Assembly (NCBI GenBank): GCA_025354985.1
Contig: JANXLU010000005.1
Location: forward strand, 1 to 64,000
Origin: Chloroflexota bacterium
GTDB lineage: Bacteria > Chloroflexota > Anaerolineae > J036 > Brachytrichaceae
Length of the DNA stretch: 64,000 nt
Reading direction: 5' to 3'
In this document: positions 38,399-62,057 of the stretch, in pieces
How the letters are laid out: every line of letters starts with the position of its first letter
Numbering within the stretch: position 1 is the stretch's first letter
Translations under genes and position numbers: made by a program
The notes under the pieces: model-generated
The model's input: only the letters and a program-made list of their open reading frames with translations
Told to the model about the DNA's origin: nothing
The model's database searches: none

Positions 38399-38887
38399 AT
38401 GATTGAGGTTGGCAAAATTGTCAGACCGCATGGCGTGCGCGGCGAAATCAAAGTTCGTATACCCGACGAGTTGATCGAGATGGCGCCGGGCATGACCGAG
38501 GTGTTGCTTGCAGGAGAATCATCGGCTCGGAAAGTGATGGCAAGCCGGGTGCATCAGGGTGCCTGGCTGCTGAAACTCGAAGGCGTGGAAACCCGGAACC
38601 TATCCGAATCATTGCGCGGCAAATCCGTGTCAGTTCTTGAATCCGAGTTGCCACGCTCCAGCGCGGAGTCCATCCTGCCGACCGAGCTCCTGGGCATGCA
38701 AGTTCAAGACAATGACGGAAACCTGCTCGGGTACTTGACAGAGGTGCTGGCAACCGGCAGTAATGATGTTTACGTGGTCACCAGACCAAACGGGCGCGAA
38801 CTCCTGTTGCCCGCACTGCAAAGCGTGGTGCACGATATCAACGGCGATTCCCGAATTATCAAGGTCACCATACCGGATGGGCTCTGA
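38399..38887 (+). CDS. rimM: Ribosome maturation factor RimM
   Basis: A 162-residue RimM that helps 30S head assembly by binding S19. The N-terminal half starts EVGKIVRPHGVRGEIKV, the family signature. The C-terminal PRC-barrel includes LLGMQVQDNDGNLLGYLTEV near 97 and ELLLPALQSVVHDIN near 137. trmD, which usually follows, is absent; instead dprA starts inside the last 11 bases of rimM. Confidence 0.95.
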   Translation: MIEVGKIVRPHGVRGEIKVRIPDELIEMAPGMTEVLLAGESSARKVMASRVHQGAWLLKLEGVETRNLSESLRGKSVSVLESELPRSSAESILPTELLGMQVQDNDGNLLGYLTEVLATGSNDVYVVTRPNGRELLLPALQSVVHDINGDSRIIKVTIPDGL

Positions 38888-43048: not shown

Positions 43049-43115
43049 ATATCCGTGTAACATCCTTGGGTTATAGTACGCGTAAGAGCCTGCGATATGG
43101 TGTCGTTTGGTCATG

Positions 43116-43135
43116 ACCGGTTAGTAGTAACCGGT
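43116..43135. terminator. Hairpin between the exopolysaccharide run and the thioredoxin gene
   Basis: ACCGGTTA at 43116-43123 pairs with TAACCGGT at 43128-43135 around GTAG. It is followed by TTGAGTTTTG, a weak T-rich stretch. It may end the manC-wzz-cpsD transcript or act as an operator for the selenoprotein-like gene 24 bases downstream. Confidence 0.4.
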
Positions 43136-43159
43136 TGAGTTTTGCTCAGAAAGGCTAGT

Positions 43160-43660
43160 ATGAAGATTTCCTTTACATTAGTAAGCGCGCTTGCCGCTTT
43201 TATTTTGACCGCATGCGCTGGGTCACCCGTGCCCAATCAGCCGGAGGTTGCCAAACCTGTTCGTGAAGTGGCTACAACTCAAGCGGTGGTCCGGCAGCCA
43301 GCTGACGTACCCACTGCGGCACGGGCAGTAGCTGTGCCTGTTCTCGCGGTTCAGCCCGATCAGGCGATCGTCACATCCAAACCCGTCTTTGTAGATTTCT
43401 TTGCGGTGTGGTGAACAGTCTGCCAAGCCATGAAACCTACCGTGAGTAGGTTGGAAGCAGAATACGCCGGTCGGGTCGAATTCAAATCCGTCGACATTGA
43501 CATCGCGGACAACACGCCCTTAAAACGCCAGTTGCACTTTATTGGTCAGCCCCAGTTTGTTATTACGGGCGCCAAGTCGCAAATTTTAAGCTCGCGAAAC
43601 AGTTATCAGCAATACACGACACTGAAACAGGATATAGAGGCGGCACTGGCAGCGCCCTAG
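43160..43660 (+). CDS. Lipoprotein thioredoxin-like predicted selenoprotein (in-frame TGA at U-x-x-C)
   Basis: Read through TGA 43412-43414, this is a 166-residue exported thioredoxin. A lipoprotein signal (hydrophobic stretch, lipobox LTAC near 19-22) and a Pro/Val/Thr-rich linker lead to the fold: PVFVDFFAVW, then position 85 encoded by TGA, then TVCQAMKPTVSRLEAEY. The motif is therefore W-U-T-V-C, with selenocysteine where thioredoxins have the first, attacking cysteine. The cis-proline is in FIGQPQFVI, and no other stop interrupts the domain. A hairpin 26 bases after the TGA fits a bacterial SECIS. ATG 43160 follows AGAAAGG. If TGA is a true stop, this is instead a nonsense-mutated pseudogene. 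No sel genes are in the window. Confidence 0.7.
43434..43452 (+). promoter_or_regulatory. Candidate bacterial SECIS hairpin
   Basis: AACCTAC at 43434-43440 pairs perfectly with GTAGGTT at 43446-43452 around the loop CGTGA. The loop begins 26 bases after the TGA at 43412-43414 and has G in its second position followed by U. Known bacterial SECIS hairpins lie about 16-37 bases after the UGA and carry a G at the start of the loop. CC at 43428-43429 can extend the stem to GG 43453-43454 across a bulge. Confidence 0.6.
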
Positions 43661-43681: not shown

Positions 43682-44836
43682 ATGCCAGTCAACCGTGCCA
43701 GTTCTCTCAGGTCGAACGCCGCTAATGGTCCAACGTCGAGGGATTCGTTTTTGTCCCGTCGATCATTCCTGCGAATTGCGGGCTTGGGGGCATCTCGGTC
43801 CATACTCCCGGCGATCATCCCACCCGGCCGCCCGCCGGTTGGCGGACTGTTAAATCAGGTTGACGCAGCGCCAGTGTCGAATGCCACTACACGCGATGTT
43901 ATGGGTTTTGCCCGTGCCGTGCGTTGGGGTGTTCCGGTCTATGCAGATCCGTCGTGGGCAAAGCCAACTGGTTATCAAATGTATGCTGACGATTTATTGC
44001 CGATATTTGGTGAAGTGCAGTCCAAGGTCGGTTCGTCCTATAACACGTTGTGGTACGAAGTGCAAGGTGGGTTTGTCCACAGCGCATTTATTCAACCAAC
44101 GCAATGGCATGAAAACATACCCGTTGCAACCTTTGATTCCGCCGGATTTTGGGCCCAAGTAACTGTTCCATTTACCGATGCGCTTACCGCGCCCTCCATC
44201 AATGCCGCGCGAACCAAATATCGCTACTATTTCGACACTGTCTATAAGGTCACCGATGTGCTTCGCGCGGAAGGGCTCACTTGGTACAAAATCGAGGACG
44301 AGGAATTTCCCGCCGATTACTTTGTCCGAGCAGAACATCTGCGCGCGTTGGACGCCGAAGATTTTCAGCCACTGTCACCCGAGATCGATCCGGCTGAAAA
44401 AAAGCTGGTTGTCAATATTGCCCAACAACGTGTGACCGCATTTGAACGAGGTCGAGAGGTTTTTTCAGCCCGCACCGCAACAGGTCACAAATTTGACGAC
44501 AAGCGCGACTTCCATACGCCGGGAGGCAGGTACACGATCTTCCGCAAAACACCCACCCAACATATGCATGGCGGAAAATTAGGCGAGGATGACTACTTTG
44601 ATTTGCCGGGCATCCCGTGGGTAAGTTACTTTACAGGCAGCGGCATTGCATTCCATGGCGCTTATTGGCACAATGACTATGGCGTGACCAGAAGCCACGG
44701 ATGCGTAAACCTGGCTCCGCAAAATGCACGCTGGATTTGGCGCTGGAGCCTGCCGGACAACGATCTCAGCGTGCGCTACACGCTCACCGCCGGTACGCAG
44801 TCGGGTACCCGTGTCGACGTGATAGGCGCGAGTTAG
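43682..44836 (+). CDS. L,D-transpeptidase (YkuD domain) with Tat-type signal
   Basis: A 384-residue exported peptidoglycan cross-linking enzyme. The N terminus contains SRRSFLRIAG near 25, a good twin-arginine motif before a hydrophobic segment. An SH3-like N-terminal part is followed by the YkuD domain from about 236 (KKLVVNIAQQRVTAFERG). The active site has the His in FHGAYWHNDYG and the SHGCVNL cysteine near 338-344, at family spacing. It starts 21 bases after the thioredoxin-like gene and may be oxidised or protected outside the cell with it. It ends with a TTAG stop overlap against the convergent nuclease gene. Confidence 0.93.
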   Translation: MPVNRASSLRSNAANGPTSRDSFLSRRSFLRIAGLGASRSILPAIIPPGRPPVGGLLNQVDAAPVSNATTRDVMGFARAVRWGVPVYADPSWAKPTGYQMYADDLLPIFGEVQSKVGSSYNTLWYEVQGGFVHSAFIQPTQWHENIPVATFDSAGFWAQVTVPFTDALTAPSINAARTKYRYYFDTVYKVTDVLRAEGLTWYKIEDEEFPADYFVRAEHLRALDAEDFQPLSPEIDPAEKKLVVNIAQQRVTAFERGREVFSARTATGHKFDDKRDFHTPGGRYTIFRKTPTQHMHGGKLGEDDYFDLPGIPWVSYFTGSGIAFHGAYWHNDYGVTRSHGCVNLAPQNARWIWRWSLPDNDLSVRYTLTAGTQSGTRVDVIGAS

Positions 44837-46779: not shown

Positions 46780-48225
46780 GTGCTCGTATTTATTCATACG
46801 ATCGCGTCCATCGCGCTTGCGATCTACGCCGCACATGAAGGCGCACTACTTCTGCTCTTTCTTCGTTATCGGCTGCGGCAAACCACGATAGCCCCGAGCA
46901 CATTGGAAGGCGTGTATCTTCCGGCAGTCACGGTCCAAATCCCACTATTCAATGAAGGAGAGGTAACGCGGCGCGTCATAGCGGCAGTATGTTCGTTGTC
47001 CTATCCGGCTTCCTTGCTTCAAGTCCAGGTTCTAGATGACTCCACCGATTGCACCAAGGACGTTGCATGTGCCGAAGTCAGCCGGTTTCGATCCCAGGGG
47101 ATCGACGTAACGCACATACATCGCGCCCAACGCACGGGATTCAAGGCGGGCGCCATGAGAAACGGCCTCCATAGTGCCACTGGCGAATTCATTGGCGTGT
47201 TTGATGCAGATTTTGCACCGGCCCCCGACTGGTTGCTACGCGCGCTTCCATACTTTAAATGCGATACGCTTCCGTCACCTACCGGACGCCACTGCGAAAT
47301 TGGCTTTGTGCAGACGTGTTGGGATTTTTCGAATCGTCAGGCCAGTGCCATCACGCGTGCAGAGTCCATGATGTTGGATATGCATTTCAAGATCGAGCAA
47401 CCGGCGCGAAGTGCATCCGGGTTGCTCATGAACTTCAACGGTTCGGGTGGACTGTGGCGGCGCGCATGCATCGACAGCTCGGGAGGCTGGCAGACCGACA
47501 CGCTTGCGGAAGATCTCGACTTAAGCTATCGCTCGCTGCTAATGGGTTGGCGGGCATGCTATGTCACGGCGATACCAGCGCCGGGAGAAGTCGTACCAAA
47601 TTTTTCGGCGTTCAAATCTCAACAGCGCCGTTGGTCACGTGGCAGTGCCCAGAACTTTAAAAAGCTGGCCGGACGCGTGCTGCAGGCTCCAATTCCGCCA
47701 CTCAAGCGGATTGCAGGATTGCTGCACCTGAGTGGATATCTGATACATGCATTCCTTTTGATCCTGACCATTACCGTGCCTCTGACGGCACTCCTACCAA
47801 CCGGCAGCATTCCCTGGTGGCTCGGAATTTTCTCCCTCAGTGGCGCGCTTCCCATGATCACCATGTTTGCCGCCCATGCCGAACGGCGACGCTCGCTTTC
47901 CAGTTTCCTAGCCGACGTTCCCATGGCAATCATGATTGGCGTAGGGATGTCTGTGAGCAACACAGTAGGTTGGCTTGAAGGGCTGATTAGCAGATCAACC
48001 GGTGAGTGGATTCAATCGCCCAAAGGGCAGACGTTGGACAGACGCGACTCCACCCCGGCTTTGACCGTGGACCCTTTAATCTTGATCGAGCTTGTTGTGG
48101 GTCTGTATTCCCTGGCGGCGGCGGTTTATCTTGGCAGTCTCGGCATTTGGATTTCTGCCGGCTCGTGTGCAATTTACGCATCAGGATTTTTAGGCGTGGT
48201 TGCACTGCAGGCGGCGCGTCGTTGA
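46780..48225 (+). CDS. Membrane glycosyltransferase family 2 (processive, CslA/cellulose-synthase-like)
   Basis: A 481-residue integral membrane GT2. One N-terminal span, then the GT-A domain with VQIPLFNEGEVTRRV near 52, LDDSTDCT near 86, the DxD motif FDADFAPAPDW near 144, the acceptor EDLDLSYR near 246 and QQRRWSRGSAQN near 283, which is the Q-x-x-R-W processivity motif. Four C-terminal spans follow. This layout fits a synthase that both polymerises and exports a beta-linked glucan or glucomannan. The GTG start is chosen because no ATG precedes the first span. A Clp-type ATPase follows 13 bases later. Confidence 0.88.
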   Translation: MLVFIHTIASIALAIYAAHEGALLLLFLRYRLRQTTIAPSTLEGVYLPAVTVQIPLFNEGEVTRRVIAAVCSLSYPASLLQVQVLDDSTDCTKDVACAEVSRFRSQGIDVTHIHRAQRTGFKAGAMRNGLHSATGEFIGVFDADFAPAPDWLLRALPYFKCDTLPSPTGRHCEIGFVQTCWDFSNRQASAITRAESMMLDMHFKIEQPARSASGLLMNFNGSGGLWRRACIDSSGGWQTDTLAEDLDLSYRSLLMGWRACYVTAIPAPGEVVPNFSAFKSQQRRWSRGSAQNFKKLAGRVLQAPIPPLKRIAGLLHLSGYLIHAFLLILTITVPLTALLPTGSIPWWLGIFSLSGALPMITMFAAHAERRRSLSSFLADVPMAIMIGVGMSVSNTVGWLEGLISRSTGEWIQSPKGQTLDRRDSTPALTVDPLILIELVVGLYSLAAAVYLGSLGIWISAGSCAIYASGFLGVVALQAARR

Positions 48226-61797: not shown

Positions 61798-61856
61798 ATT
61801 GAAACCGTGCTCGCATGAAGGTGATGTGAGCTATACTCTTCGTCACAACTTAATAT

Positions 61857-62025
61857 TGTTTAGGTGACCCGGTGTCTCGTAAAAGAGACTCAAAGGCTCG
61901 GAAGCCAGGGCTTAAAGGTGGAATCCAGTGCCGCGCGACACCGCGCAAAGTCTGGAACTGTGCCGCAACTGTATTTATGCGCACTAAAAACGCGCGTAAG
62001 AGTCAGGATACCTGCCTAATGAACG
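61857..62025 (+). ncRNA. Cobalamin (AdoCbl-class) riboswitch
   Basis: The conserved elements occur in order: TTTAGGTGACCCGGTG at about 61859, TTAAAGGTGGAATCCAGTG at about 61912, GTGCCGCAACTGTA near 61960 and the B12 box AGTCAGGATACCTGCC at 62001-62016. Their order and spacing match cobalamin riboswitches. The leader continues with a short open frame and an intrinsic terminator at 62121-62152 before the alpha/alpha-toroid gene. Control of the two secreted proteins by vitamin B12 is therefore expected. Confidence 0.93.
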
Positions 62026-62057
62026 CAGCAGCCCTTCTCGGGATCAAGGAGGAATTT

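Follow-up and report, generated by a model that had tools for sequence, protein, structure and literature searches.

A predicted selenocysteine-containing lipoprotein thioredoxin encoded beside an L,D-transpeptidase in a Chloroflexota bacterium

A thioredoxin gene with an in-frame TGA

The window, the whole 64,000-nucleotide stretch of DNA analysed here, contains a thioredoxin gene in which a TGA stands in place of the first active-site cysteine, and we asked whether this codon ends the protein or is read as selenocysteine (Sec). The features that bear on this question are:

43114..43137 (+): terminator-like hairpin, separating the thioredoxin gene from the polysaccharide gene upstream
43148..43154 (+): ribosome-binding-like AGAAAGG, 5 nt upstream of the thioredoxin ATG (from sequence)
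43160..43660 (+): predicted lipoprotein Sec-thioredoxin gene, 166 aa including U85; ATG at 43160, TAG at 43658-43660 (from sequence, profile match and homologues)
43160..43216 (+): signal peptide to the lipobox LTA-C19 (from sequence); C19 is invariant in 11 aligned full-length homologues
43412..43414 (+): TGA, predicted selenocysteine U85, position 1 of UxxC (from homologue codons)
43421..43423 (+): TGC, C88, the second (resolving) active-site cysteine, invariant in the alignment
43434..43452 (+): bacterial SECIS hairpin, 7 bp (stem 43434-43440 / 43446-43452), loop CGTGA at 43441-43445
43682..44836 (+): exported YkuD L,D-transpeptidase, candidate partner (Pfam YkuD, 1.3e-22), beginning 21 nt downstream of the thioredoxin gene

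An initial annotation of this DNA had placed the TGA at the first cysteine of a thioredoxin CxxC site, and had described a lipobox, a ribosome binding site and a fold that continues in the same frame to the cis-proline and the end of the gene. We recovered each of these elements. The TGA is the sole one in frame within the ORF, in the context FFAVW-U-TVC, and the encoded protein consists of a signal peptide, the lipobox, a Pro/Ala/Val-rich linker and a thioredoxin domain. With the TGA read as a residue, Pfam Thioredoxin (PF00085) matches residues 68-158 at 3.6e-13, scoring 49.8 bits against a gathering score of 23.5; no curated NCBIfam model scored the protein above its cut-off. U85, C88 and the cis-proline P131 (in QPQ, same frame) are all invariant in the aligned homologues, to which the overall identity is only 27-48%. 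An AlphaFold model of the domain has block-mean pLDDT values of 93-99, and a Foldseek search with it returned thioredoxins from the PDB. Judged by these sequence features, the thioredoxin is probably a lipoprotein, predicted to be anchored to the cytoplasmic membrane on its outer side. The hairpin at 43114..43137 suggests that the thioredoxin and ykuD genes form a separate transcription unit; two terminator-like hairpins were found in the region, where 0.7 would be expected by chance.

Evidence for selenocysteine at U85

In bacterial selenoproteins, the in-frame UGA stands where homologues carry a cysteine codon. We surveyed 28 genomes of the same bacterial family, in which G000 is the genome that carries the window, and found TGA at the U85 codon in 18 homologues (G000, G001, G002, G003, G005, G006, G008, G010, G012, G013, G017, G019, G020, G021, G023, G041, G042 and G043, that of G019 ending at a contig edge). 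Elsewhere in the class, G170, G424 and G429, which belong to other families, contribute three more TGA homologues. The initial annotation had asked whether homologues carry Cys, and some do: the codon is TGC or TGT in G004, G007, G015 and G016, where SelA and SelB fall below their cut-offs. Cys is also found in more divergent homologues of two genomes that are trait-positive by SelB, G014 and G018. A Cys-requiring pattern search of genome contigs returned only generic Cys thioredoxins and no homologues of the window gene. Codons 3' of the TGA are under purifying selection, with dN/dS of 0.01-0.27 in 11 of 12 pairs; the remaining pair is identical.

G015 is, with good tree support, the sister of the Sec-bearing G010; it has TGC at the site and six of the seven hairpin pairs, and ykuD still adjoins the gene. 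The simplest reading is a recent Sec-to-Cys replacement following loss of the Sec trait, which, with its decaying SECIS relic, makes this genome a natural experiment. When Sec trait and Sec codon were compared in pairs on the tree, two independent pairs had support and each agreed with expectation, but two are too few to reach significance.

Bacterial SECIS elements are constrained to a loop of 3-9 nt, a stem of 4-16 bp, a G in the first two loop positions, a distance of 16-37 nt from the UGA and an energy of at most -7.5 kcal/mol (PMC13188914). The window hairpin lies within all of these limits: its 5-nt loop, CGUGA, has U after the G at position 2 and lies 26 nt from the UGA, its stem is 7 bp, and it folds at -9.5 kcal/mol over 36 nt. 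Its coordinates agree with the perfect 7-bp stem and CGTGA loop, 26 bases past the TGA, that had been proposed for it. Folding energy alone is not decisive for the hairpin. A 59-nt segment folds at -15.1 kcal/mol, and 15 of 200 shuffles are as stable (z -1.58); energy relative to synonymous recodings separates Sec from Cys homologues poorly.

The pairing pattern is more telling and, unlike energy, sets Sec and Cys homologues apart. When the window gene is recoded synonymously, all seven pairs form in just 0.68% of cases; among relatives, they are complete in 17 of the 18 family homologues (six of seven in G005), and the nine Cys homologues or paralogues all fall short of seven. Hairpin cells are paired in 99.1% of cases across 17 sequences and in 97.1% across 21. 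In the larger set, four of the seven stem pairs have changed on both sides, a number that, taken alone, is not above that in shuffles. The covariation score for these 21 sequences is 0.529 against 0.231 in shuffles that ignore the relatedness of the sequences, none of 500 shuffles reaches it, and versions of the hairpin slid along the alignment score at most 0.092. Because so few recodings pair fully, and because relatives carry compensatory changes, we conclude that the hairpin is not a product of chance.

Sec insertion also depends on dedicated machinery, and the initial annotation had held that absence of selB or tRNA-Sec would speak against it. Both are present in the genome, as are selA and selD, all over their cut-offs. 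The tRNA-Sec scores 65.3 bits (Rfam cut-off 47) and is called by ARAGORN as tRNA-SeC(tca), with anticodon TCA; SelB scores 317 bits (cut-off 242) and SelA 510 bits (cut-off 268); SelD is above its curated cut-off and has an in-frame TGA of its own, at CAGUAGK. The tRNA-Sec score is a less clean criterion across genomes, as long tRNAs, probably tRNA-Ser, also score in controls and in G004, G007 and G016, and thus our Sec-trait calls rest on SelA and SelB. SelA is absent or fragmentary in G001 and in the 67%-complete G012, gaps that we put down to incomplete assemblies.

Could the TGA be read in some other way? Were it a real stop, the locus would be a pseudogene or two ORFs of which the N-terminal part alone is made, and translation table 11 does split the frame into ORFs 43142-43414 and 43430-43660. 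We consider this very improbable, given that the same TGA is kept in 18 family homologues, that purifying selection extends over 74 codons past it together with the invariant cis-proline, and that a truncated protein would lack both the resolving cysteine and the greater part of the fold. Homologues that all end at the TGA had been named as a contrary outcome; instead, they run on under selection. Even less credible is a reassignment of TGA in this organism, for example to Trp. In a single gene, an open frame with TGA as a residue would look identical under that scheme, but the conserved neighbour genes at 38399-38887 and 46780-48225 still use TGA as their stop, so the code has not changed here. 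Where the Sec trait is missing, homologues have Cys at the site and never Trp, and the TCA-anticodon tRNA is tRNA-Sec.

A sequencing or assembly error in place of TGC or TGT, which would have shown in reads, might be entertained for a draft assembly of 98 contigs. It is as far-fetched as reassignment, since TGA occurs independently in 18 separately assembled family genomes, with the SECIS hairpin alongside. On homologues, neighbour stops, tRNA-Sec and hairpin, we rejected all three of these alternatives. Collectively, the sequence data make it very highly probable that the window gene is a genuine selenoprotein gene, with Sec predicted at U85.

Proposed chemistry and role

In the mechanism that we propose, the SECIS hairpin immediately 3' of UGA85 would be bound by SelB, which would deliver Sec-tRNA to the UGA. 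The resulting thioredoxin, held by a lipid anchor to the outside of the cytoplasmic membrane, would have W-U-T-V-C as its active site. Thioredoxin chemistry assigns attack to the first active-site residue and resolution to the second; by this rule, the selenolate would be the attacking nucleophile and C88 would resolve. The protein would most likely reduce oxidised cysteines of exported proteins, with electrons arriving via a CcdA-type membrane carrier. A CcdA-like protein in the same genome scores near the Pfam cut-off (29.7 against 27.1 as a protein, 20.8 in a genome scan), and its gene adjoins a CcmC-like gene. The CcdA-like carriers L206 (1677-2471, same genome), L208 and L209 look circularly permuted, with GW[S/T]PCIGP in the first helix and SFASPCVLPL in the last, an order inverted relative to L202 and L203.

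Which exported proteins might be served? The initial annotation had inferred a surface selenoredoxin that protects neighbouring cell-wall enzymes. The window's YkuD protein contains just one cysteine, the catalytic C341 in SHGC (relatives have one or two more), and its adjacency to the thioredoxin is kept in three genera (G000, G010, G015, G006 and G012), with Sec and Cys versions of the thioredoxin both. Because of this adjacency and the single catalytic Cys, the proposed role in cell-wall enzyme protection gains support and can be called plausible. Were the thioredoxin a dedicated selenium-based repair partner for cell-wall cross-linking, keeping that cysteine reduced, this lineage would rely in part on selenium to remodel its wall. 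YkuD is absent beside the thioredoxin in the same-genus genomes G001-G003 and in the checked genomes of genera g6 and g3, and so is not the sole substrate. As a single substrate, the best candidate is the catalytic cysteine of the neighbouring transpeptidase, and we hold only tentatively that serving it might be the dedicated job of the thioredoxin.

We lean somewhat towards a different account of the role, under which the selenoprotein has a general job unrelated to the L,D-transpeptidase: reduction of apocytochrome c or other exported thiols, as for ResA or CcmG, or peroxide defence. Many relatives keep the thioredoxin with no adjoining ykuD, the CcdA-like gene lies next to a CcmC-like gene, and the genome encodes another Sec-thioredoxin lipoprotein away from the window, along with five YkuD genes. 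A general job sits less easily with a pairing kept across three genera for Sec and Cys versions, and with a YkuD protein whose one cysteine is the catalytic one.

Relation to known selenoproteins

Among the selenoprotein families with experimental verification is Sec thioredoxin (PF00085, UxxC; PMC13188914, Table 1), which is also listed in PMC1794560 and PMC1088965, in line with the initial annotation, which had called UxxC thioredoxins a known class. The window protein shares with this family the thioredoxin fold and one Sec at the first CxxC position, but also has a lipobox, followed by a long Pro/Ala/Val-rich linker, with predicted anchoring outside the membrane. A limited search of open papers found no description of a lipoprotein form. 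The class is thus known, and what appears new here is the predicted surface lipoprotein form. Table 1 of PMC13188914 also has thiol:disulfide interchange, DsbG-like and TlpA-like selenoproteins, which likewise combine a redox function with a Sec-containing active-site motif and are named after exported families; these fall under PF13098, NF041057 and cd02966, whereas the window protein scores best with PF00085.

The proposed job, keeping single catalytic cysteines of exported enzymes reduced, is shared with E. coli DsbG/DsbC and DsbD, and DsbG shields periplasmic single-cysteine proteins from sulfenylation (PMC4460558). The window protein differs in being a thioredoxin-type Sec lipoprotein that lacks a dimerisation domain and whose function is predicted. 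YbiS is reportedly a DsbG substrate (Depuydt 2009); our literature search on DsbG with YbiS found no usable text on the transpeptidase substrate.

Standard annotation would split the gene at the UGA and lose the protein, here and in no fewer than 17 related genomes. Lipoprotein thioredoxins of this lineage use Sec repeatedly, one form with two Sec residues, so that the reason for preferring selenium outside the cell becomes a directly testable question.

Several further thioredoxins with in-frame TGA were seen. The second Sec-thioredoxin lipoprotein of the window's own genome (L055, G000:C36:13943-14335, minus strand) has the motif ADTUEHC and the same hairpin with six of seven pairs. Genus g6 has a lipoprotein thioredoxin with TGA at both active-site positions (LFYAQGUGPU), a predicted double-Sec protein conserved in four genomes: L058 (G013), L185 (G023), L186 (G021) and L187 (G020). 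L056 (G003:C153) and L057 (G002:C408) are proteins of ~550 aa with an in-frame TGA in a C-terminal thioredoxin domain (FYADWUEAC) and a weaker SECIS hairpin; by eye, they resemble glucose/sorbosone dehydrogenase. L059 (G033:C54), from another family of the class, is a membrane-anchored thioredoxin with an in-frame TGA (HADWUITC). Elsewhere in the window, a cobalamin riboswitch at 61845-62033 scores above the Rfam cut-off.
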